DNA of 64,000 nt from Algoriphagus aquaeductus. GTDB taxonomy: Bacteria > Bacteroidota > Bacteroidia > Cytophagales > Cyclobacteriaceae. Within the stretch, counting starts at the first letter, position 1, and the number at the start of each line of letters is the position of its first letter. The translations under genes and the position numbers were made by a program. Under the pieces are notes generated by a model that saw only the letters and a program-made list of their open reading frames with translations, was not told the DNA's origin and did not search any database. Positions 47,993 through 55,875 of this stretch are shown in pieces. Location: contig NZ_QKTX01000016.1 in NCBI RefSeq assembly GCF_003253485.1, positions 1 through 64,000 of the forward strand. Direction: 5' to 3'.

Positions 47993-49078
47993 ATGAACCC
48001 AAGTATGACTAACCTTTTCCCTTTCCCGGAATTAAATTCCGAAAGGCTCCCATTCCTCATTGCCGGCCCCTGCAGCGTAGAAACTCCCGAGCAACTTCAC
48101 GCCACCGTAGCCCAACTGGTGAATAAAGGAATCCAACTTATCCGTGGGGGTGTCTGGAAGCCAAGAACCCGGCCCAATGGATTTGAAGGAGTGGGGACTT
48201 TGGCCTTGCCATGGATAAAGGAGGTCAAAAGGGAGTTTCCTGTCAGGTTTGCCGTTGAAGTAGCTTCTGCCAGTCATGTAGAAGAAGCGCTTAAAGCTGG
48301 TATCGATGTACTTTGGATCGGGGCAAGATCTACCGTAAATCCGTTTACCGTTCAGGAGATCGCCGAAAGCCTGAGAGGAATAGACATCCCTGTGTTAATA
48401 AAAAACCCGGTCAATCCCGATTTGGGCCTTTGGTTGGGAGCTTTTGAAAGACTGGAAAGTGTGGGTTTGAACAGATTGGGAGCCATTCATCGCGGATTTT
48501 CGAATTATCGGGACAAAATCCACCGCAATTCCCCCATGTGGCAAATCCCGATCGAATTCAGGACTATTCGCCCGGAAATCCCCATGATCAACGATCCAAG
48601 CCATATTTCAGGAAGGAGGGATTTGGTTCCATCTATTGCCCAAAAAGCACTTGACCTCAACTTTGACGGCTTGATGATCGAGTCGCATGTTCGGCCTGAT
48701 GCCGCTTGGACCGATGCAGCCCAGCAACTTACCCCTGAGGTACTCGGAGAACTAATCGGAAAACTCAAAACCCGAAAAATCCACTTCGAGGCTCCAGAAA
48801 CCCTCCACCAACTCGAGGAAATCCGTCAACAAATCGATGAGGCGGACAGGGAAATGCTAGAAGCATTTGCCCGGAGAATGCACTTGGTAGAAAAAATCGG
48901 AGAATACAAAAAGCTGAATAATGTAGCTGCATTTCAGCGGGAACGCTGGCAGGAAGTGTTTGAATCCCGACCGGAATGGGGCAAAAAACTAGGTTTGAAT
49001 CCAGAAGCGGTCGAAGAGATATTTCGAATCATCCATCAGGAGTCGATTAGGAAACAAACGGAGATATTGGATCAATGA
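47993..49078 (+). CDS. Bifunctional DAHP synthase / chorismate mutase, paralogue 1
   Basis: About 361 residues. The N-terminal part is a short-type (KDO8PS-like) DAHP synthase, condensing PEP and erythrose 4-phosphate: FLIAGPCSVETPEQ, RGGVWKPRTRPNGFEG, VLWIGARSTVNPF, RLGAIHRGFS and MINDPSHISGRRD. The C-terminal 90 residues form an AroQ chorismate mutase (LEEIRQQIDEADREMLEAFARR split around 270-292). This order, mutase last, is that of Prevotella/Porphyromonas enzymes, in which prephenate feedback has been shown. Starts at 47993 or 48005 are both possible. It has its own promoter and terminator, separate from the operon that follows. Confidence 0.9.
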   Translation: MNPSMTNLFPFPELNSERLPFLIAGPCSVETPEQLHATVAQLVNKGIQLIRGGVWKPRTRPNGFEGVGTLALPWIKEVKREFPVRFAVEVASASHVEEALKAGIDVLWIGARSTVNPFTVQEIAESLRGIDIPVLIKNPVNPDLGLWLGAFERLESVGLNRLGAIHRGFSNYRDKIHRNSPMWQIPIEFRTIRPEIPMINDPSHISGRRDLVPSIAQKALDLNFDGLMIESHVRPDAAWTDAAQQLTPEVLGELIGKLKTRKIHFEAPETLHQLEEIRQQIDEADREMLEAFARRMHLVEKIGEYKKLNNVAAFQRERWQEVFESRPEWGKKLGLNPEAVEEIFRIIHQESIRKQTEILDQ

Positions 49079-49124: not shown

Positions 49125-49136
49125 CAAAACTCAGGT

Positions 49137-49172
49137 AGCTTTTCCAAAAGTCTAAACTTTGGAAAAGCTTTT
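49137..49172 (+). terminator. Intrinsic terminator of DAHP synthase paralogue 1
   Basis: AGCTTTTCCAAA (49137-49148) pairs perfectly with TTTGGAAAAGCT (49158-49169) around a 9-base loop and continues into T4. It separates the first DAHP synthase gene from the attenuated operon downstream. The AT-rich stretch 49173-49370 that follows shows no convincing gene. Confidence 0.85.
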
Positions 49173-49376: not shown

Positions 49377-49411
49377 TAATTTTGGATTTAAAAAATCCCC
49401 TTTTACATTTA
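49377..49411 (+). promoter_or_regulatory. Promoter candidates for the aromatic operon leader
   Basis: Two overlapping options: TAATTTTG (49377-49384), an exact -7 element giving a leader transcript from about 49390; or TTTG (49381-49384) as -33 with TACATTTA (49404-49411, one mismatch to TAnnTTTG) as -7 at 19-base spacing, which would start transcription at the leader ATG itself. GGATTT/AAATCC (49384-49398) forms a small inverted repeat between them. Confidence 0.5.
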
Positions 49412-49415
49412 CGGC

Positions 49416-49511
49416 ATGTTAATCACAGCAGCGATCTATTTTACTTTCTTTTACTTTTACTTTCGACAGAAAAATCGAATCGGAGCTGTGTATTGTCTAG
49501 CCAAAAACTAA
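49416..49511 (+). CDS. Phe/Tyr-rich leader peptide of the aromatic operon (31 codons)
   Basis: ATG at 49416, TAA at 49509-49511. The peptide begins MLITAAI, then residues 8-16 are YFTFFYFYF (codons at 49437-49463: five Phe, three Tyr, one Thr), and it ends GAVYCLAKN. Two amino acids fill eight of nine positions, and they are exactly the end products of the operon that follows. It resembles pheL in principle but not in sequence. A terminator starts 17 bases after the stop. The peptide itself is presumably without function; its translation would be the sensor. Confidence 0.82.
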   Translation: MLITAAIYFTFFYFYFRQKNRIGAVYCLAKN

Positions 49512-49560
49512 AAGAAAATAAAAACACAAAAAGCCCGGTTCGAAAGAGTCGGGCTTTTTT
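49425..49560 (+). promoter_or_regulatory. Attenuator RNA: mutually exclusive antiterminator and terminator
   Basis: Four segments can pair alternatively. 1:2: ACAGC (49425-49429) and CGAT (49432-49435) pair with GCTGT (49485-49489) and ATCG (49479-49482), with the Phe/Tyr codons in the loop. 2:3 (antiterminator): TCGAATCGGAGCT (49475-49487) pairs with AGCCCGGTTCGA (49532-49543), 12 pairs including one G-U, one bulged A. 3:4 (terminator): 49528-49537 with 49550-49559. A ribosome stalled on the aromatic codons would cover segment 1 and let 2:3 form, allowing read-through; rapid translation would leave 1:2 and 3:4. Pairings are seen in the sequence; the mechanism is inferred. Confidence 0.75.
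49528..49560 (+). terminator. Attenuator terminator
   Basis: AAAAAGCCCG (49528-49537) pairs with CGGGCTTTTT (49550-49559) around a 12-base loop and is followed directly by T's, a textbook intrinsic terminator. It ends 21 bases before the first structural gene of the operon, so it can only act as a conditional stop. Confidence 0.9.
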
Positions 49561-49581
49561 CATTTAAAACGCTCAAGCCGT

Positions 49582-50679
49582 ATGAAGCCACACAAACAAA
49601 TCAAAGACTGGGGACTGGGATTGACCTCTCCACTGATCATCGCAGGACCTTGCTCTGCTGAGACCCCCGAGCAAATCGAACAGATCTGCAAGGAAATGAA
49701 AGAAGAAAACATGGTTCCGCAGCTTTTCCGAGCCGGAATCTGGAAACCAAGAACCCGACCCGGTTCTTTCGAAGGAGTAGGTGAAGAAGGCCTCAAGTGG
49801 ATGGAAATTGTACGTCACCACTTGAATATCCCCATCACGACAGAGGTAGGAAATGCCGCTCACGTGGAGATGGCACTCAAACACAAGGTCGATGTACTGT
49901 GGATCGGTGCCCGAACCACCGTGAATCCATTCGCCGTACAGGAAATCGCTGAAGCTTTACGTGGTGTGGACGTTCCAGTGATGGTCAAAAATCCCATGAA
50001 CCCGGATTTGGAACTTTGGATGGGGGCTTTGGAAAGAATGTACGCAGTAGGTATCGATAAGCTCGCTGCGATTCACCGCGGATTCTCTGACGCGTACGAC
50101 AAACGCTACAGAAACAAGCCCAACTGGTCCATGCCGATTCACCTCAAGCGGGAGTGGACAGGAATGGAAGTGATCAACGACCCTTCCCACATCGTAGGCC
50201 GCAGAGATGGACTGCTTGAAGTAGCTCAGAGCGCGATGAACTTCGGTTTGGATGGCTTGATGATTGAGACTCACCATGACCCCGACAAAGCGTGGTCTGA
50301 TGCCAAGCAGCAAGTCACACCGCATCGCCTGAAAGAAATGATCGACTCCATTGACTTCAAACAGCCTTTGGAGAACATGAAGCCGGACGAAAGATTGCAG
50401 GACCTTCGCCGTGCGGTAGATCATTTGGACGATCAGTTGTTGGATATCCTTCAGGAAAGATTTGCCGTAATCGATCAGATCGGTGCCCACAAAAGAGAAC
50501 ACCATTTGACCGTATTTCAATCGGATCGCTGGAAAGAAGTGATGGACTCACGTACTCAAAAAGGTGTAAAAAAACACCTCAGCGAGAAGTTTATGAAAGA
50601 ATTGCTCTACTGTATCCATGAAGAATCGGTAAAGCGCCAGGAAAAGCAACTCCGTGAAGCCGAACCTATTAAAAAATAA
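49582..50679 (+). CDS. Bifunctional DAHP synthase / chorismate mutase, paralogue 2 (first gene of the operon)
   Basis: A 365-residue enzyme with the same architecture as paralogue 1: DAHP synthase barrel (LIIAGPCSAETPEQ, FRAGIWKPRTRPGSFEG, VLWIGARTTVNPF, KLAAIHRGFSDAYDKRYRNK, VINDPSHIVGRRDG) followed by AroQ chorismate mutase (LQDLRRAVDHLDDQLLDILQ near 272). It supplies both the first step of the shikimate pathway and the chorismate-to-prephenate step, which fits an operon whose pheA and tyrA have no mutase domain. Preceded by the Phe/Tyr attenuator; aroB follows after 79 bases. Confidence 0.92.
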   Translation: MKPHKQIKDWGLGLTSPLIIAGPCSAETPEQIEQICKEMKEENMVPQLFRAGIWKPRTRPGSFEGVGEEGLKWMEIVRHHLNIPITTEVGNAAHVEMALKHKVDVLWIGARTTVNPFAVQEIAEALRGVDVPVMVKNPMNPDLELWMGALERMYAVGIDKLAAIHRGFSDAYDKRYRNKPNWSMPIHLKREWTGMEVINDPSHIVGRRDGLLEVAQSAMNFGLDGLMIETHHDPDKAWSDAKQQVTPHRLKEMIDSIDFKQPLENMKPDERLQDLRRAVDHLDDQLLDILQERFAVIDQIGAHKREHHLTVFQSDRWKEVMDSRTQKGVKKHLSEKFMKELLYCIHEESVKRQEKQLREAEPIKK

Positions 50680-50695
50680 ATCTGCTCTCAACCTC

Positions 50696-50727
50696 AGGAA
50701 GGCCGTCCCTTTTGGGACCGCTTTCCT
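50696..50727 (+). other. Intra-operon hairpin between the DAHP synthase gene and aroB
   Basis: GTCCC (50705-50709) and GGGAC (50714-50718) around TTTT, extended outward by AGGAAGG and CTTTCCT with two bulged C's, give a stem of about 13 pairs. There is no T-run after it, so it is more likely a processing or stability element than a terminator. Confidence 0.5.
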
Positions 50728-50758
50728 AACTTAGTCCTCTCACCAAATCGGTTAACCC

Positions 50759-51808
50759 GTGGAATCCGTCATTTTCTCAGCTGATATCAAGAAATCTCTT
50801 TCGGAGATTTTATCCAAAATCTCCTATTCCAGGCTGATCGTATTGACAGACTTAAATACCCAAAGACATTGTCTACCGATCATTCAGGAAATTCTACCTG
50901 AAAACGCTGTTTTCATCTCTGTTTCAGCCGGAGAAATCCACAAAAACCTAGATACCTGCTCCCTGATTTGGAGCCGAATGACGGAGGAAGCTTTGGACAG
51001 AAAAGCCCTGATGATCAATCTTGGCGGTGGAGTTATCGGAGATATGGGAGGCTTTTGTGCCAGCATTTACAAAAGAGGCATCCGATTCATCAATTGCCCC
51101 ACCACCCTACTATCACAAGTAGATGCAAGTGTTGGCGGAAAATTGGGAATCGATTTCAACGGGCTGAAAAACCACCTCGGGGTATTCAATGAACCCGAAA
51201 CGGTCATTATCGCACCGGAATTTCTTAAGACATTGCCTCATGCCGAACTCCGATCCGGCTATGCAGAAATCATCAAACATGGTCTTATCCGGGATAAAGC
51301 CTATTTCCAAAAACTTCAAGCTCAAAATTGGGAAAGCCAAGATTGGGAAAGTCTGATCCGCCATTCGGTAGGGATCAAAAAAGCAGTGGTAGAAGCAGAT
51401 CCAAAAGAAAACGGACTTCGGAAAATCCTCAACTTCGGCCATACCATCGGACACGCTTTCGAGTCCTATTTTCTGGACACCCAGAATCACCTGCTTCACG
51501 GGGAAGCCATCGCTTTGGGAATGATCGCTGAGGGATTTCTTTCTTTCGAAAAAGTCGGTTTCAGCTTTGAAGAATTCAGAGAAATGAGCCGTTTTCTTCT
51601 TCAGGTATATGGGAAAGTTGATTTTCCCCTACACGAACTCGATCCCATTCTCGATCTCTGCACCCAAGACAAGAAAAACGAAGGCTCCGTTATTCTATTT
51701 TCCCTTCTCGAATCCATTGGTAACTGTACCTACAACATTCCAGTGACTCGGGAAGAAATCAAACACGCCATTCAGTATTACCACCAAATCCAAGCGGCTC
51801 AGGCCTAG
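50759..51808 (+). CDS. aroB: 3-dehydroquinate synthase
   Basis: A 349-residue NAD- and Zn-dependent enzyme converting DAHP to 3-dehydroquinate. Conserved blocks: INLGGGVIGDMGGFCA near 93, NCPTTLLSQVDASVGGKLGID near 117 (zinc/substrate region), ELRSGYAEIIKHG near 163, LNFGHTIGHAFES near 225 and LLHGEAIALGM near 246, with the zinc-binding Glu and His residues. The start is GTG at 50759. Second gene of the aromatic operon; aroA follows after 12 bases. Confidence 0.95.
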   Translation: MESVIFSADIKKSLSEILSKISYSRLIVLTDLNTQRHCLPIIQEILPENAVFISVSAGEIHKNLDTCSLIWSRMTEEALDRKALMINLGGGVIGDMGGFCASIYKRGIRFINCPTTLLSQVDASVGGKLGIDFNGLKNHLGVFNEPETVIIAPEFLKTLPHAELRSGYAEIIKHGLIRDKAYFQKLQAQNWESQDWESLIRHSVGIKKAVVEADPKENGLRKILNFGHTIGHAFESYFLDTQNHLLHGEAIALGMIAEGFLSFEKVGFSFEEFREMSRFLLQVYGKVDFPLHELDPILDLCTQDKKNEGSVILFSLLESIGNCTYNIPVTREEIKHAIQYYHQIQAAQA

Positions 51809-51820
51809 ACTATTTCCACC

Positions 51821-53053
51821 ATGCAACTCCTTCGCCTTGCTCAAAAAAGCGAATTCGATACCATACGAATACCTCTTCCCTCTTCCAAAAGCGAGTCCAA
51901 TCGGGCCTTGGTCATCGATGCCCTGACTTTAGGAAAAAACGAAATCACCAATCTTGCCGAAGCACGTGACACGCAGACCATGATTCGTTTGTTGGAAAAA
52001 AGTCCGCCGGTTTTTGACGTGCTCGATGCAGGTACGACTATGCGTTTTTTGACCGCCTACACGACGGTGACCAATCAAAAAAAGGTCATGACCGGCACAG
52101 CCCGGATGTGTGAACGTCCCATCGGCATCTTGGTGGATGCACTTCGGGCCATCGGAGCGGAAATCCATTACCTCAACAAAGAAGGTTACCCTCCTCTTGC
52201 AATTCACGGACTTCCCAAGCAGACCACCGACAAGGTGAAAATCCGCGGGGATGTATCCAGTCAATACATCTCAGCCATGCTGATGATCGCACCGATTTTG
52301 CCTTTGGGTCTGGAAATCGAGCTCGAAGGAAAAGTCGGGAGCCGAACCTACATCGAGATGACTTTGGAATTGATGGCGCAATTTGGTATTGCCTACACTT
52401 GGGAAGGAAACAAAATCCAGGTCCCTCATCAATCCTATACCCCTACCCGATTCGCGGTGGAAAGCGACTGGTCCGGAGCAAGCTACTGGTTCAGCCTCTT
52501 GGCCTGTGCGGATTCGGGAGAGCTATTTTTAGAAGGATTAAAAGAAAACAGCCTACAAGGCGACTCGGCCATTGTAGAAATCATGGACCACTTGGGCGTA
52601 AAATCCACCTTCCAAAACGGTGGTGTGCTTCTCCAAAAACAAGCCGTAAAAGGCTTGAAAAACTGGGATTTCACCCATTGCCCTGACCTCGCCCAAACTG
52701 TTGCAGTGACTTGTGCCATCTTGGGACAAAATGCAATATTCACCGGATTGGAAAGCTTGAGAATCAAGGAAACCGACCGGATCTACGCCTTGCAGCAGGA
52801 ATTGGTCAAGTTTAACGCCGAACTGAAGGAAATCAAACCGGAAGTTTTCCAGGTCATTCCTTCGGTTACCATGCCTTGCCAGGTACAAATCCACACCTAC
52901 GACGACCACCGCATGGCCATGGCCTTTATGCCGCTTTTGACCAAAACAGAAGTGGTCATCGAGGAGCCGGACGTGGTAAACAAATCCTATCCAAGCTTTT
53001 GGAAGCATGTGGCGCTGACAGGGGTCCAAGCACATAATCCAAGCGAGGTATGA
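51821..53053 (+). CDS. aroA: 3-phosphoshikimate 1-carboxyvinyltransferase (EPSP synthase)
   Basis: A 410-residue EPSP synthase joining shikimate 3-phosphate with PEP. Visible: PLPSSKSESNRALVID near 20, DAGTTMRFLTAYT near 69 (where classical enzymes have NAGT), GDVSSQYISAMLMIAP near 145, ESDWSGASYWF near 215, CPDLAQTVAVTCA near 287, LRIKETDRI near 315 and YDDHRMAMAF near 362. Slightly shorter than the E. coli enzyme. Overlaps pheA by four bases (ATGA). Confidence 0.95.
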   Translation: MQLLRLAQKSEFDTIRIPLPSSKSESNRALVIDALTLGKNEITNLAEARDTQTMIRLLEKSPPVFDVLDAGTTMRFLTAYTTVTNQKKVMTGTARMCERPIGILVDALRAIGAEIHYLNKEGYPPLAIHGLPKQTTDKVKIRGDVSSQYISAMLMIAPILPLGLEIELEGKVGSRTYIEMTLELMAQFGIAYTWEGNKIQVPHQSYTPTRFAVESDWSGASYWFSLLACADSGELFLEGLKENSLQGDSAIVEIMDHLGVKSTFQNGGVLLQKQAVKGLKNWDFTHCPDLAQTVAVTCAILGQNAIFTGLESLRIKETDRIYALQQELVKFNAELKEIKPEVFQVIPSVTMPCQVQIHTYDDHRMAMAFMPLLTKTEVVIEEPDVVNKSYPSFWKHVALTGVQAHNPSEV

Positions 53054-53874
53054 GCCTGAAAATCGCCATACAGGGAGTTCCGGGCTCTTTCCATCATCAG
53101 GTGGCTTTGAAAACCTTTGGGCTGGATTCTGAGATTTTAGCATTCAATACCTTCGAACCCGTAGCCAAATCAGTCGCTCAGGGTCAGGCTGATTTTGGCG
53201 TAATGGCCATCGAAAACTCCATTGCAGGCGCGATTTTACCCAATTACGACCTGATCGACCGGTATGAACTCTTTATCCGAGACGAATATTACCTGCCCAT
53301 AGCCCATCAACTGATGGCTTTGCCTGGACAGACTATAGGGGAAATCCGAGAAGTTCGATCTCATCCCATGGCTCTGCTTCAGTGCAAGGCTTTTTTGGCA
53401 AAATATCCCCATATTCAGCAAAATGATGATGTAGACACAGCATCAGTGGCCAAACGGATATCGGAGGAAAAACTCACCGGACTTGCCGCCATCGCCAGCG
53501 AAATCGCAGCGGAAATTTATGGCTTGGAGATTTTGGCTCGAGACATTCAGACGGTGAAAGACAACTTCACCCGATTTATCATTTTACAGAAGGAAAAGGT
53601 CCAAACCCAGATTCTTCCAAATAAAGCATCCTTCAAAATCACGATCCGAAATGAAGCCGGGGGTTTGGCCAAATTGCTCACCATGCTGGCGGATAAAGGC
53701 CTGAACCTAAGCAAAATCCAGTCGATCCCGGTCATGGAAAAACCTTGGGAATATGCCTTTTTTATCGATGCAGAATTTGGAGATTACAATCAGTTTAGAG
53801 AAGCCATGAACTTGGTGGTCAAAGATTTTGGCGACTTAAAAATATTCGGAGAATACAGCAGCAGAAAAGGATGA
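53050..53874 (+). CDS. pheA: Prephenate dehydratase with ACT domain
   Basis: A 274-residue enzyme making phenylpyruvate from prephenate. PDT domain (about 1-180): IQGVPGSFHHQVAL, ADFGVMAIENSIAG near 50, EVRSHPMALLQCKAFL near 98, TAIASEIAA-type segment and the catalytic DNFTRFIIL near 173. ACT domain (about 192-270): SFKITIRNEAGGLAKLLTML and NLSKIQSIPV, the likely phenylalanine feedback site. No chorismate mutase domain; that activity is on the first gene. Four-base overlaps on both sides. Confidence 0.94.
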   Translation: MSLKIAIQGVPGSFHHQVALKTFGLDSEILAFNTFEPVAKSVAQGQADFGVMAIENSIAGAILPNYDLIDRYELFIRDEYYLPIAHQLMALPGQTIGEIREVRSHPMALLQCKAFLAKYPHIQQNDDVDTASVAKRISEEKLTGLAAIASEIAAEIYGLEILARDIQTVKDNFTRFIILQKEKVQTQILPNKASFKITIRNEAGGLAKLLTMLADKGLNLSKIQSIPVMEKPWEYAFFIDAEFGDYNQFREAMNLVVKDFGDLKIFGEYSSRKG

Positions 53875-55019
53875 AGGGATTTGCAAACAGAATTAACAGC
53901 GTCGAAGAGTATTACTTCTCGGCCAAACTCCGGGAAGTCAACCAACTCATTGCCGAAGGTAAACCCGTGATCAATTTGGGGATCGGTTCGCCCGACCTCG
54001 CTCCCGATCGCAGCGTGATCGAAGCACTCAAAAACACGGCTGAAAACGGTCAGGCGCATGGCTACCAAAGCTATCAGGGCATTCCTGAATTGCGGATTGC
54101 GATGGCCTCATTTTACCACCGTGAGTTTGGCGTCGAGCTTGTTCCCAACAAGGAAATCCTTCCATTAATGGGCTCCAAAGAAGGGATTCTGCACATCAGC
54201 ATGGCTTTTCTCAATCCCGGCGACCAAGTCCTCATTCCCAACCCTGGCTATCCGACCTATACCTCGGTGACTCGATTGCTGGAAGCCGAACCGATTTTCT
54301 ATTCCTTGGATCTGGAGAAAAAAGGAAGACCCAATCTGGAAGAGCTGGGGCAAAAAGATCTCTCCAAGGTCAAGTTGATGTGGATCAATTATCCGCATAT
54401 GCCAACGGGAGCTGCAGGTTCAATGGAAATCCTGACCGAATTGGTTGCTTTTGCCCAAAAGCATGACATCATCCTCGTCAATGACAATCCCTACAGCCAC
54501 ATCCTGAATCCGCAACCCTTGAGCGTGTTGAGCATTCCGGGTGGAAAAGAGGTCGCTTTGGAGCTGAACTCACTCAGCAAAACCTTCAATATGCCGGGTT
54601 GGCGAGTGGGCATGCTCTGCGGTCGGGAAGACTATGTAGCCGCCGTGCTCAAGGTCAAGTCCAACATGGATTCAGGCATGTTTCTCGGACTTCAAAAAGG
54701 CGCCATAGCAGCCCTTTCTTTAGGTAAAAACTGGTTTGCTGACCAAAACGAAATCTACACCAACCGTCGAAAGCTCATCTGGAAACTTGCCGATCACCTC
54801 GGCCTCAGCTACGATACCAAAGGCACCGGTCTTTTTGTCTGGTGTAAAGTCGAAGGGGAAAAATCCCCTGAGGAACTTGTCGATTGGCTGCTTTACGAAA
54901 AAAACATCTTCATCACTCCGGGTAAAATCTTCGGCACTGCAGGAAATGACTACGTGCGTTTCTCTCTCTGCATGCCCGAATTCAAAATCCTGGAGGCTAT
55001 CAACCGTATCAAACCTTAA
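53871..55019 (+). CDS. PLP-dependent class I/II aminotransferase of the aromatic operon
   Basis: A 382-residue fold-type I aminotransferase: INLGIGSPDLAPD near 35, YQSYQGIPELRIAMA near 64, GSKEGILHISMAFLNPGD near 103, NPGYPTYTS near 125, NDNPYSHILN near 203, SLSKTFNMPGWRVGM near 232 with the Schiff-base Lys, and VRFSLCMPE near 365. Its place between pheA and tyrA suggests it converts phenylpyruvate and 4-hydroxyphenylpyruvate to Phe and Tyr, or prephenate to arogenate. Specificity is inferred from position alone. Confidence 0.9.
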   Translation: MKGFANRINSVEEYYFSAKLREVNQLIAEGKPVINLGIGSPDLAPDRSVIEALKNTAENGQAHGYQSYQGIPELRIAMASFYHREFGVELVPNKEILPLMGSKEGILHISMAFLNPGDQVLIPNPGYPTYTSVTRLLEAEPIFYSLDLEKKGRPNLEELGQKDLSKVKLMWINYPHMPTGAAGSMEILTELVAFAQKHDIILVNDNPYSHILNPQPLSVLSIPGGKEVALELNSLSKTFNMPGWRVGMLCGREDYVAAVLKVKSNMDSGMFLGLQKGAIAALSLGKNWFADQNEIYTNRRKLIWKLADHLGLSYDTKGTGLFVWCKVEGEKSPEELVDWLLYEKNIFITPGKIFGTAGNDYVRFSLCMPEFKILEAINRIKP

Positions 55020-55026
55020 CCTTGCT

Positions 55027-55875
55027 ATGCGAAAAATACACATCATTGGACTCGGACTCTTGGGAGGTTCCTTTGGACTGGGAGCACGACAAAAATTCCC
55101 CGAAATCAGCATCACCGGCCACGACTCCAACCCTCAAAACTTGAAAGATGCCTTGACTTTGGGCATTATCACCGAAGCTAAAGAAACACCTGATGCCGAT
55201 ACCGATTTGGTCATCTTGGCAACACCTGCTGATACGCTTGGTGAGCTTTTGCTTCAGACCTTGGATCAGGTAGGCGAAAACACCCTGATTTTTGATGTGG
55301 GTTCGACCAAGGCCAAGCTCTGCGCCTTGATGGCTGGCCATCCCAAAAGAAGACAGTACTTGGCCGCCCACCCGATTGCGGGAACGGAATATTCCGGTCC
55401 GAAAGCTGCTTTTGCAGACCTGCTTGACCGCAAAGTGATGATCATCTGCGAACTCGAAAAAACGGATCTTCATCTAAAGGAGAAGGCCTACAAGCTCTTT
55501 GATGCGCTCAACCTGAAGTTACGTTTCATGGATCCGGAGGAGCATGACCGTCATTTGGCATTCGTGTCTCATCTTTCCCATGCTTCTTCGTTTATGCTGG
55601 GTCAGACCGTCTTGCAAAAAATGAAGGACGACAAAAACATCTTCGATATGGCGGGTTCGGGTTTTGCATCTACCGTGCGACTGGCAAAGTCAAGCCCGGC
55701 GATGTGGGCACCGATCTTTGTCGAAAACAAGGAAAATGTACTGGCTGCCTTGGATGGCTATATCCAAAATCTGACCGATTTCAGAAACAAAATCGCCGCG
55801 GACGACACGAAGGGATTGTATGATGAAATGGCGGAGATCAATAAAATTCGGGATATTTTGGATTTGGGAAAATAG
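55027..55875 (+). CDS. tyrA: Prephenate dehydrogenase
   Basis: A 282-residue TyrA: IHIIGLGLLGGSFGLG at the start is the NAD-binding GxGxxG motif; DLVILATPAD near 60; DVGSTKAKLCALM near 89; HPIAGTEYSGPKAA near 117 and HDRHLAFVSHLSHASSF near 175 with the catalytic His region. It forms 4-hydroxyphenylpyruvate (or Tyr from arogenate). ATG at 55027 starts directly before the Rossmann strand, seven bases after the aminotransferase stop. Last gene of the operon; a terminator follows at 55913-55945. Confidence 0.94.
   Translation: MRKIHIIGLGLLGGSFGLGARQKFPEISITGHDSNPQNLKDALTLGIITEAKETPDADTDLVILATPADTLGELLLQTLDQVGENTLIFDVGSTKAKLCALMAGHPKRRQYLAAHPIAGTEYSGPKAAFADLLDRKVMIICELEKTDLHLKEKAYKLFDALNLKLRFMDPEEHDRHLAFVSHLSHASSFMLGQTVLQKMKDDKNIFDMAGSGFASTVRLAKSSPAMWAPIFVENKENVLAALDGYIQNLTDFRNKIAADDTKGLYDEMAEINKIRDILDLGK

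Follow-up and report, generated by a model that had tools for sequence, protein, structure and literature searches.

Ribosome-mediated attenuators combine a short open reading frame (ORF), rich in consecutive codons for the amino acids that the operon makes, with a terminator and alternative RNA pairings. In Escherichia coli, pheL follows this plan, with a Phe-rich leader, a terminator and alternative pairings ahead of aromatic pathway genes, and in the trpL layout the leader stop codon lies between segments 1 and 2. Leaderless attenuators have precedents: the mycobacterial polycysteine short ORFs of Canestrari et al. 2020 are reportedly both leaderless and attenuating, and passages on S. meliloti trpL (rnTrpL) describe an attenuator RNA that begins at the ATG of its leader ORF (PMC7298713). 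As far as the authors of a 2010 paper knew, no leader-peptide system had by then been demonstrated beyond Proteobacteria and Actinobacteria (PMC2965389). For Bacteroidetes, leader-peptide attenuation has already been suggested in general terms in parts of two studies (PMC7366714, PMC9723704), one of which speaks of "strong clues" for it before amino acid operons of Flavobacterium psychrophilum (PMC9723704).

Here, we describe a leader ahead of a Phe/Tyr operon in a 64,000-nucleotide stretch of Algoriphagus DNA (the window). It has the sequence features of the trpL/pheL/hisL class, namely a run of product codons, a terminator, an antiterminator and a 1:2 pairing, and we consider it very probably a ribosome-mediated transcription attenuator. 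The elements of the leader region are as follows.

49381 to 49384, + strand: -33 element TTTG; 87 of 101 family leaders have TTTG or TTGG at a suitable distance
49404 to 49411, + strand: -7 element TACATTTA (consensus TAnnTTTG), 19 nt after the TTTG and ending 4 nt before the leader ATG
49416, + strand: predicted transcription start, the A of the leader AUG, from promoter spacing
49416 to 49511, + strand: leader peptide ORF, 31 codons and a stop, translation MLITAAIYFTFFYFYFRQKNRIGAVYCLAKN and stop
49420 to 49435, + strand: segment 1, pairing with 49479-49495 in the 1:2 hairpin (14 pairs)
49437 to 49463, + strand: control codons 8-16, YFTFFYFYF, with 5 Phe and 3 Tyr
49475 to 49487, + strand: segment 2, the antiterminator strand, inside the leader ORF, pairing with segment 3
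49529 to 49560, + strand: intrinsic terminator (3:4), stem 49529-49541 with 49546-49558, loop GAAA, T run 49555-49560
49532 to 49543, + strand: segment 3, the antiterminator partner (2:3 pairing), overlapping the terminator 5' arm and loop

The original prediction, made from the letters of the window, had proposed a 31-codon frame at 49416-49511 with five Phe and three Tyr in nine codons, and translation confirmed it, placing them at codons 8-16. Of the 556 ORFs in the window that start with ATG and span 12-60 codons, this is the sole one with at least six F/Y in nine codons; 30 Markov-1 windows (26,409 ORFs) yielded five such ORFs, one of them with seven and none with eight. The run is well kept: across 76 distinct close-type leaders, codons 8-16 hold eight F/Y in 72 and seven in three, the count covering the genus and first-tier family leaders, with the divergent L148-L176 outside it and L022 (a 6-nt deletion) left out. 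From its codon content, a single leader would sense both tRNA-Phe and tRNA-Tyr. By eye, two changes of frame in L148 (genome G095) replace some of the aromatic residues with LLLL and leave the RIG in segment 2 in place; it is either a degenerate leader or an assembly error.

Behind the leader lie six genes whose predicted order was borne out by domain and family profiles (49582-55875).

49582 to 50679, + strand: DAHP synthase-chorismate mutase (DAHPS-CM), the first regulated gene (PF00793 and PF01817)
50759 to 51808, + strand: aroB, 3-dehydroquinate synthase (TIGR01357, 334.9 bits, cut-off 305)
51821 to 53053, + strand: aroA, EPSP synthase (TIGR01356, 295 bits, cut-off 287.25)
53050 to 53874, + strand: pheA, prephenate dehydratase (PF00800, 200 bits)
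53871 to 55019, + strand: class I/II aminotransferase (PF00155)
55027 to 55875, + strand: tyrA, prephenate dehydrogenase (PRK08507, 325 bits, cut-off 295)

The DAHPS-CM product is 84-98% identical to its closest named Algoriphagus homologues. pheA scored 201.8 against the NCBIfam equivalog PRK11898, under the cut-off of 219, and for the aminotransferase no NCBIfam model among the best 25 listed reached its cut-off; the enzyme is presumably aromatic, its substrate being suggested by its position in the operon. The tyrA start was placed at MRKIHII, and the profile scan used 55045-55872. Directly upstream of the leader, at 47993-49078, is a second DAHPS-CM paralogue (46% identity), followed by an A+T-rich inverted repeat, seen by eye at ~49136-49172, that may end the paralogue's transcript. 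Of the genomes of the genus, 35 gave a DAHPS-CM match, and in seven of them a second match (E <= 1e-80) adjoins the first.

The three pairings proposed for the leader RNA were all recovered, two of them with adjusted limits. The antiterminator (49475-49487 with 49532-49543) forms 12 pairs with one bulged A, exactly as claimed; the terminator, given as 49528-49560, maps to 49529-49560, with 21 bases between it and the ATG at 49582; and the third pairing, claimed for 49425-49435 with 49479-49489, is real and longer, running from 49420-49435 with 49479-49495. Their isolated energies are -11.9 (1:2), -15.4 (2:3) and -17.3 (3:4) kcal/mol, and the region 49380-49582 folds better than 200 of 200 shuffles (z -3.3). 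A generic terminator scan found one site against a shuffle mean of 1.9, so the terminator alone is not significant and the case for it rests on conservation.

Within the genus, conservation of the leader is complete at the orthologous loci, where the ORF was found in 35 of 35 (our own and 34 relatives); G020, a further same-genus genome, gave no orthologue match at threshold. Among 80 named loci the leader is present in 78. One of the two without it, L208, ends at a contig edge, and the other, L215, shares a contig with L019, which has the leader. By eye, an insert of ~95 bp separates the terminator from the DAHPS-CM start in L034, L036 and L208; the L208 sequence ends inside it, and an insert like that of L034 and L036 would push the leader off its contig. 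In the 34 genus leaders, 96.4% of terminator cells are paired, compared with 28-60% (maximum 60.0%) in slid controls; the corresponding values are 98.0% against 6-59% (maximum 58.8%) for the antiterminator with segment 3 and 86.8% against 23-44% (maximum 43.7%) for the 1:2 hairpin. The aromatic codons and the alternative pairings, whose loss in relatives was to count against the prediction, are thus both conserved.

The covarying stems that had been anticipated appeared in permutation tests across distant leaders and failed to appear within the genus for the antiterminator and the 1:2 hairpin. The genus terminators include one pair with a compensatory A-U to G-C change in two leaders, which 10 of 500 shuffles equalled; in the antiterminator no pair has both bases changed (500 of 500 shuffles as good), and in the 1:2 hairpin one has (225 of 500 as good on pairing). 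Taken by itself, the genus gives conservation and not covariation, the case for which rests on the distant leaders. We hybridized in silico the segment-2 region of each leader with its own and with permuted terminator 5' arms. The set of 44 leaders comprised the window, 28 leaders from the class level and 15 that we chose among the available divergent leaders of the family; L359, where the script found no terminator, was out of this test. The summed energy for own arms was -700.7 kcal/mol versus -461.2 +/- 19.0 for permuted arms, with none of 5000 permutations as good (z -12.6). For the 1:2 pairing, in 45 leaders (the window, the 15 divergent family leaders and 29 of class level), own pairs were better than all 5000 permutations (z -8.4), and the 29 class-level leaders alone gave z -6.3. 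These comparisons indicate that the antiterminator pairing is specific to each leader; in L158 and L171, for instance, a GUCCC in the terminator arm is matched by GGGAC in segment 2. Weak cases exist, in which many swaps pair better than the leader's own arm (L324, 13 of 38; L334, 17 of 41; L348, 20 of 42; L163, 17 of 43; L172, 16 of 43). Because single-leader swaps are ambiguous where the partners' terminators are similar (e.g., L154, L157 and L172), the global permutation tests were used.

We also found a promoter motif whose position bears on how the leader would be translated. Exactly 4 nt separate a TAnnTTT(A/G) box from the leader ATG in 85 of 101 family leaders, among them all 35 from the genus and 50 of the 66 others; in the window, 3 of 2090 ATGs have the box at that spacing, the leader's own included. 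The TAnnTTTG box of F. psychrophilum occupies -12 to -5 (PMC9723704), which is where the leader's -7 box falls with the A of the ATG as +1; because of this correspondence with the position mapped in Flavobacterium, the A of the ATG is the predicted start, and the leader mRNA is probably leaderless. Leaderless mRNAs make up only 5.5% in F. psychrophilum (PMC9723704), and 5' UTRs shorter than 10 nt ~3.7% in B. thetaiotaomicron (PMC7366714). In class-level pheA leaders (n = 29), the nearest box within 44 nt is 8-35 nt off in 19 and there is none in 10, so leaderlessness looks like a trait of the Algoriphagus family. Among the leaders inspected in our own genome, only the Phe/Tyr leader matches the leaderless promoter pattern. 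We tried the promoter-ATG unit alone as a leader marker and abandoned it, as only 1 of 14 own-genome matches was a leader (by eye), with 7 matches for a reversed-pattern control.

We infer the following sequence of events, including where exactly transcription starts, that the leader is translated, that ribosomes stall on it, that both tRNAs are sensed and how fast the steps run. RNA polymerase would probably start at the A of the leader AUG and a ribosome would load at the 5' end of the nascent RNA. With ample charged tRNA-Phe and tRNA-Tyr, this ribosome would pass the aromatic codons and segment 2 to reach the stop; segment 2 would be covered and then re-paired with segment 1, 3:4 would form and transcription would terminate near 49560, releasing a leader RNA of a predicted ~145 nt. 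Were either tRNA short of its amino acid, the ribosome would wait at the aromatic codons, covering segment 1 or holding it off segment 2, and segment 2 could pair with segment 3 before segment 4 was made, allowing read-through into the Phe/Tyr operon.

The stop codon after segment 2, which the original prediction had noted as unlike trpL, was confirmed and is the usual arrangement among the leaders compared. From the end of segment 2 to the end of the stop codon there are 23 nt at this site and +23 to -15 across 44 leaders, and the stop lies at or past the antiterminator strand (distance not negative) in 37 of the 44. The terminator starts 18-39 nt past the stop; with the stop placed after segment 2 and the terminator that far on, a terminating ribosome would leave the terminator unmasked, and a passing ribosome would leave 1:2 free to re-form behind it. 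Just after the 1:2 hairpin, at 49485-49495, is a G at -10, T at -1 and G at +1, which we take to be the elemental pause consensus; by eye the pattern is kept in most genus leaders, L008 and L011 being among those that lack it.

Folding the leader with a ribosome at different codons was consistent with these steps and set limits on them. With RNA made as far as the loop and everything up to the ribosome front excluded, the 12-pair antiterminator formed with the ribosome at codons 8, 10, 12 and 14, and 9 of its 12 pairs formed at codon 16. With the ribosome at codon 31 and the RNA complete, the inner 1:2 pairs and the terminator formed; with segment 4 still unmade, the antiterminator beat 1:2 at that codon, so the order of events would matter. 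In every stalled state folded, the terminator was the minimum-energy state of the full-length RNA, and antitermination must therefore be kinetic, as it is in other attenuators. Stalls at codons 13-16 leave segment 1 uncovered, and when only the ribosome footprint was masked at codon 16, 1:2 and the terminator remained; stalls at the last control codons would thus have to act by steric hindrance.

To follow the leader beyond the genus, we built a covariance model (R1) from the 34 genus leaders, which at E <= 0.01 gave matches in 169 of the 295 genomes of the family. An aromatic-run leader was present in 54 of the 60 non-genus matches examined, and the remaining matches without one (L156, L164, L166, L168, L169 and L170) were dropped as chance or terminator-only; L076, with its leader at the locus edge, was excluded, and further same-genus R1 loci were not added. 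The genes behind non-genus leaders encode DAHPS-CM at 77-85% identity or another DAHPS-CM at 54-64%, and the leader also stands before pheA (L158, L161, L162 and L171) and before an aminotransferase followed by tyrA (L155 and L165). In three cases (L159, L163 and L172), a Tyr-run leader precedes a biopterin-dependent aromatic amino acid hydroxylase (PF00351), the bacterial enzyme that converts Phe to Tyr. Tyr-rich leaders, poor in or free of Phe and with a terminator, stand before the hydroxylase in these three and in L276, L291, L297, L300, L310 and L311, and they spread over four families of the order; in L163 and L172 the hydroxylase is followed by a gene for a class-I glutamine amidotransferase that looks hisH-like by eye. 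Tyr-run leaders are a minority among hydroxylase loci: with a terminator, they were found at 4 of 30 and 2 of 20 loci in two sets, with an ambiguous Tyr/His ORF in L309, and none was found at the hydroxylase in our own genome or at seven other same-genus loci.

A class-wide search found pheA matches in 73 of 256 genomes, and 63 of these genomes lie outside the order. We examined 40 of these 63 and found an F/Y leader with a terminator before pheA at 26, compared with 0 of 40 on the opposite strand; a looser count put a leader ORF at 29 of the 40, the other 11 having no such ORF. In family f13, four loci (L095, L101, L104 and L110) have two tandem F/Y leaders before pheA, each with its own terminator; this is four of the five f13 loci read, and on our reading they would be attenuators in series. 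Before DAHPS-CM in other families of the order, 18 loci (L039-L056, L056 offering only 14 upstream bases) gave no convincing leader, and L042, L046 and L053 have an F/Y/W-rich ORF with no terminator seen by eye.

Other amino acid operons of our own genome have leaders of similar appearance by eye: a Trp-run leader (MKTIANKYWWWHSST.., with WWW) and a terminator before a trpE-like gene (L362, contig C3), an Ile/Leu/Val-rich leader (MYPLVVLLSFIILIGFSK) and a terminator before ilvD (L364, C22), and a His-rich ORF, HAHMLHHFHH, with no clear terminator before hisG (L361, C10). Several amino acids thus seem to be under attenuation control in this genome.

We asked whether the conserved ORF might instead matter as a protein. 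Its RIGA-Y-CL-K tail is highly conserved in close leaders, and parts of the S. meliloti work report a trans-acting leader peptide (PMC7298713), so the ORF could encode a small functional peptide, with the hairpin an ordinary terminator or a by-product. We find this very unlikely. In L142, a 1-base deletion past the control codons alters the peptide and destroys the RIGAAYCL tail, yet segment 2 is intact as RNA, and therefore the tail there is kept as RNA; the tail is truncated in L036, L124, L141, L143, L144 and L147, class-level leaders share the aromatic run and not the tail, and segment 2 tracks the terminator sequence. The long stretch of ORF past the aromatic run would also suit a nascent-peptide arrest by free Phe or Tyr in the manner of TnaC, with no role for tRNA charging. 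We judge that idea highly unlikely, because across the class residue order and F/Y identity vary while their density stays, and the tail is not conserved as a peptide outside the family.

Two further readings concern the RNA itself. The predicted RNA of 145 nt, which has a promoter and a terminator to itself, and the leaderless precedent of rnTrpL described in passages of PMC7298713, a by-product of attenuation that can itself act in trans, might point to a mainly trans-acting small RNA with control of the operon secondary; this is highly improbable, as wherever the downstream gene was identified it was a Phe/Tyr gene, which trans action would not need, and a trans role in addition to attenuation is possible. 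That a T-box, a riboswitch or a protein-bound leader controls the operon and the aromatic ORF is incidental is barely credible: we found nothing in its favour, none of the 15 matches to Rfam with E up to 10 is a T-box or riboswitch, and the aromatic run recurs before pheA outside the order. Ribosome-mediated attenuation is strongly supported by the comparison of leaders; computation shows the ORF, the promoter motif, the terminator and the two alternative pairings, which are conserved and co-vary.

More tentatively, and somewhat short of what we would call probable, the leaders may form an aromatic attenuator regulon across the class Bacteroidia, bacteria without a Shine-Dalgarno sequence in their mRNAs. 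In the Algoriphagus family, the leader mRNA would start at the AUG, and the first ribosome would have to load on the 5' end just when this emerges from RNA polymerase; control codons would track the product of the first gene (Phe plus Tyr before the common pathway, a Tyr run before the hydroxylase), and 4 of 5 f13 loci would carry two attenuators in series. If true, a textbook RNA mechanism of Proteobacteria would be widely used for Phe and Tyr synthesis in a large class on which the literature searched offers no more than general hints, and the leaderless start would change the initiation step that normally sets the timing between transcription and translation. The leaders would then offer a natural test of how ribosomes load and are coupled to polymerase where promoters are unusual and Shine-Dalgarno sequences absent, and the Tyr-run leaders predict that the hydroxylase is regulated by its own product through tRNA-Tyr charging.

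A description of a Phe/Tyr leader was not found in the literature searched (titles, abstract starts and passages); two older comparative attenuation studies may list Bacteroidetes cases, Vitreschak 2004, which reportedly covers some, and Lopatovskaya 2010. The original prediction's remark that it knew of no experimentally described case in this group has to be qualified by the clues reported for F. psychrophilum (PMC9723704). Beyond that prediction, we have described the promoter and a probably leaderless start, followed the leader into other families, and noted leaders for Trp and for Ile/Leu/Val in the same genome.

Among known RNAs, no Rfam family reached its gathering score at the site. 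The best-scoring match, the Bacteroides small RNA BTnc231 (RF04180, 28.9 bits vs 80.4), resembles the leader in being U-rich with a terminator, with no shared ORF shown, and was dropped as a U-rich, terminator-driven match. Structured 5' regions also precede amino acid operons in F. psychrophilum, a member of the same phylum as Algoriphagus; the word phenylalanine does not occur in that study's main text (PMC9723704). Leaderless attenuator leaders have precedents in S. meliloti and, reportedly, in mycobacteria. S. meliloti trpL has an RNA start at the leader ATG as predicted in Algoriphagus; it differs in using Trp codons and in belonging to an alphaproteobacterium. The mycobacterial polycysteine ORFs are reportedly alike as leaderless attenuating ORFs and differ in their cysteine codons and actinobacterial host. 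The trpL/pheL/hisL layout invoked in the original prediction fits as to the codon run, the terminator and the alternative pairings, and does not as to the trpL stop position. A close counterpart is pheL, the E. coli pheA attenuator (Phe_leader, RF01859; 28.3 bits against a gathering score of 55, so not a member by score), with which the Algoriphagus leader has in common a Phe-rich leader peptide, a terminator, alternative pairings and aromatic genes, and from which it differs in its combination of Phe with Tyr, DAHPS-CM as the first gene, a stop after segment 2, a probably leaderless mRNA and its place in another phylum.
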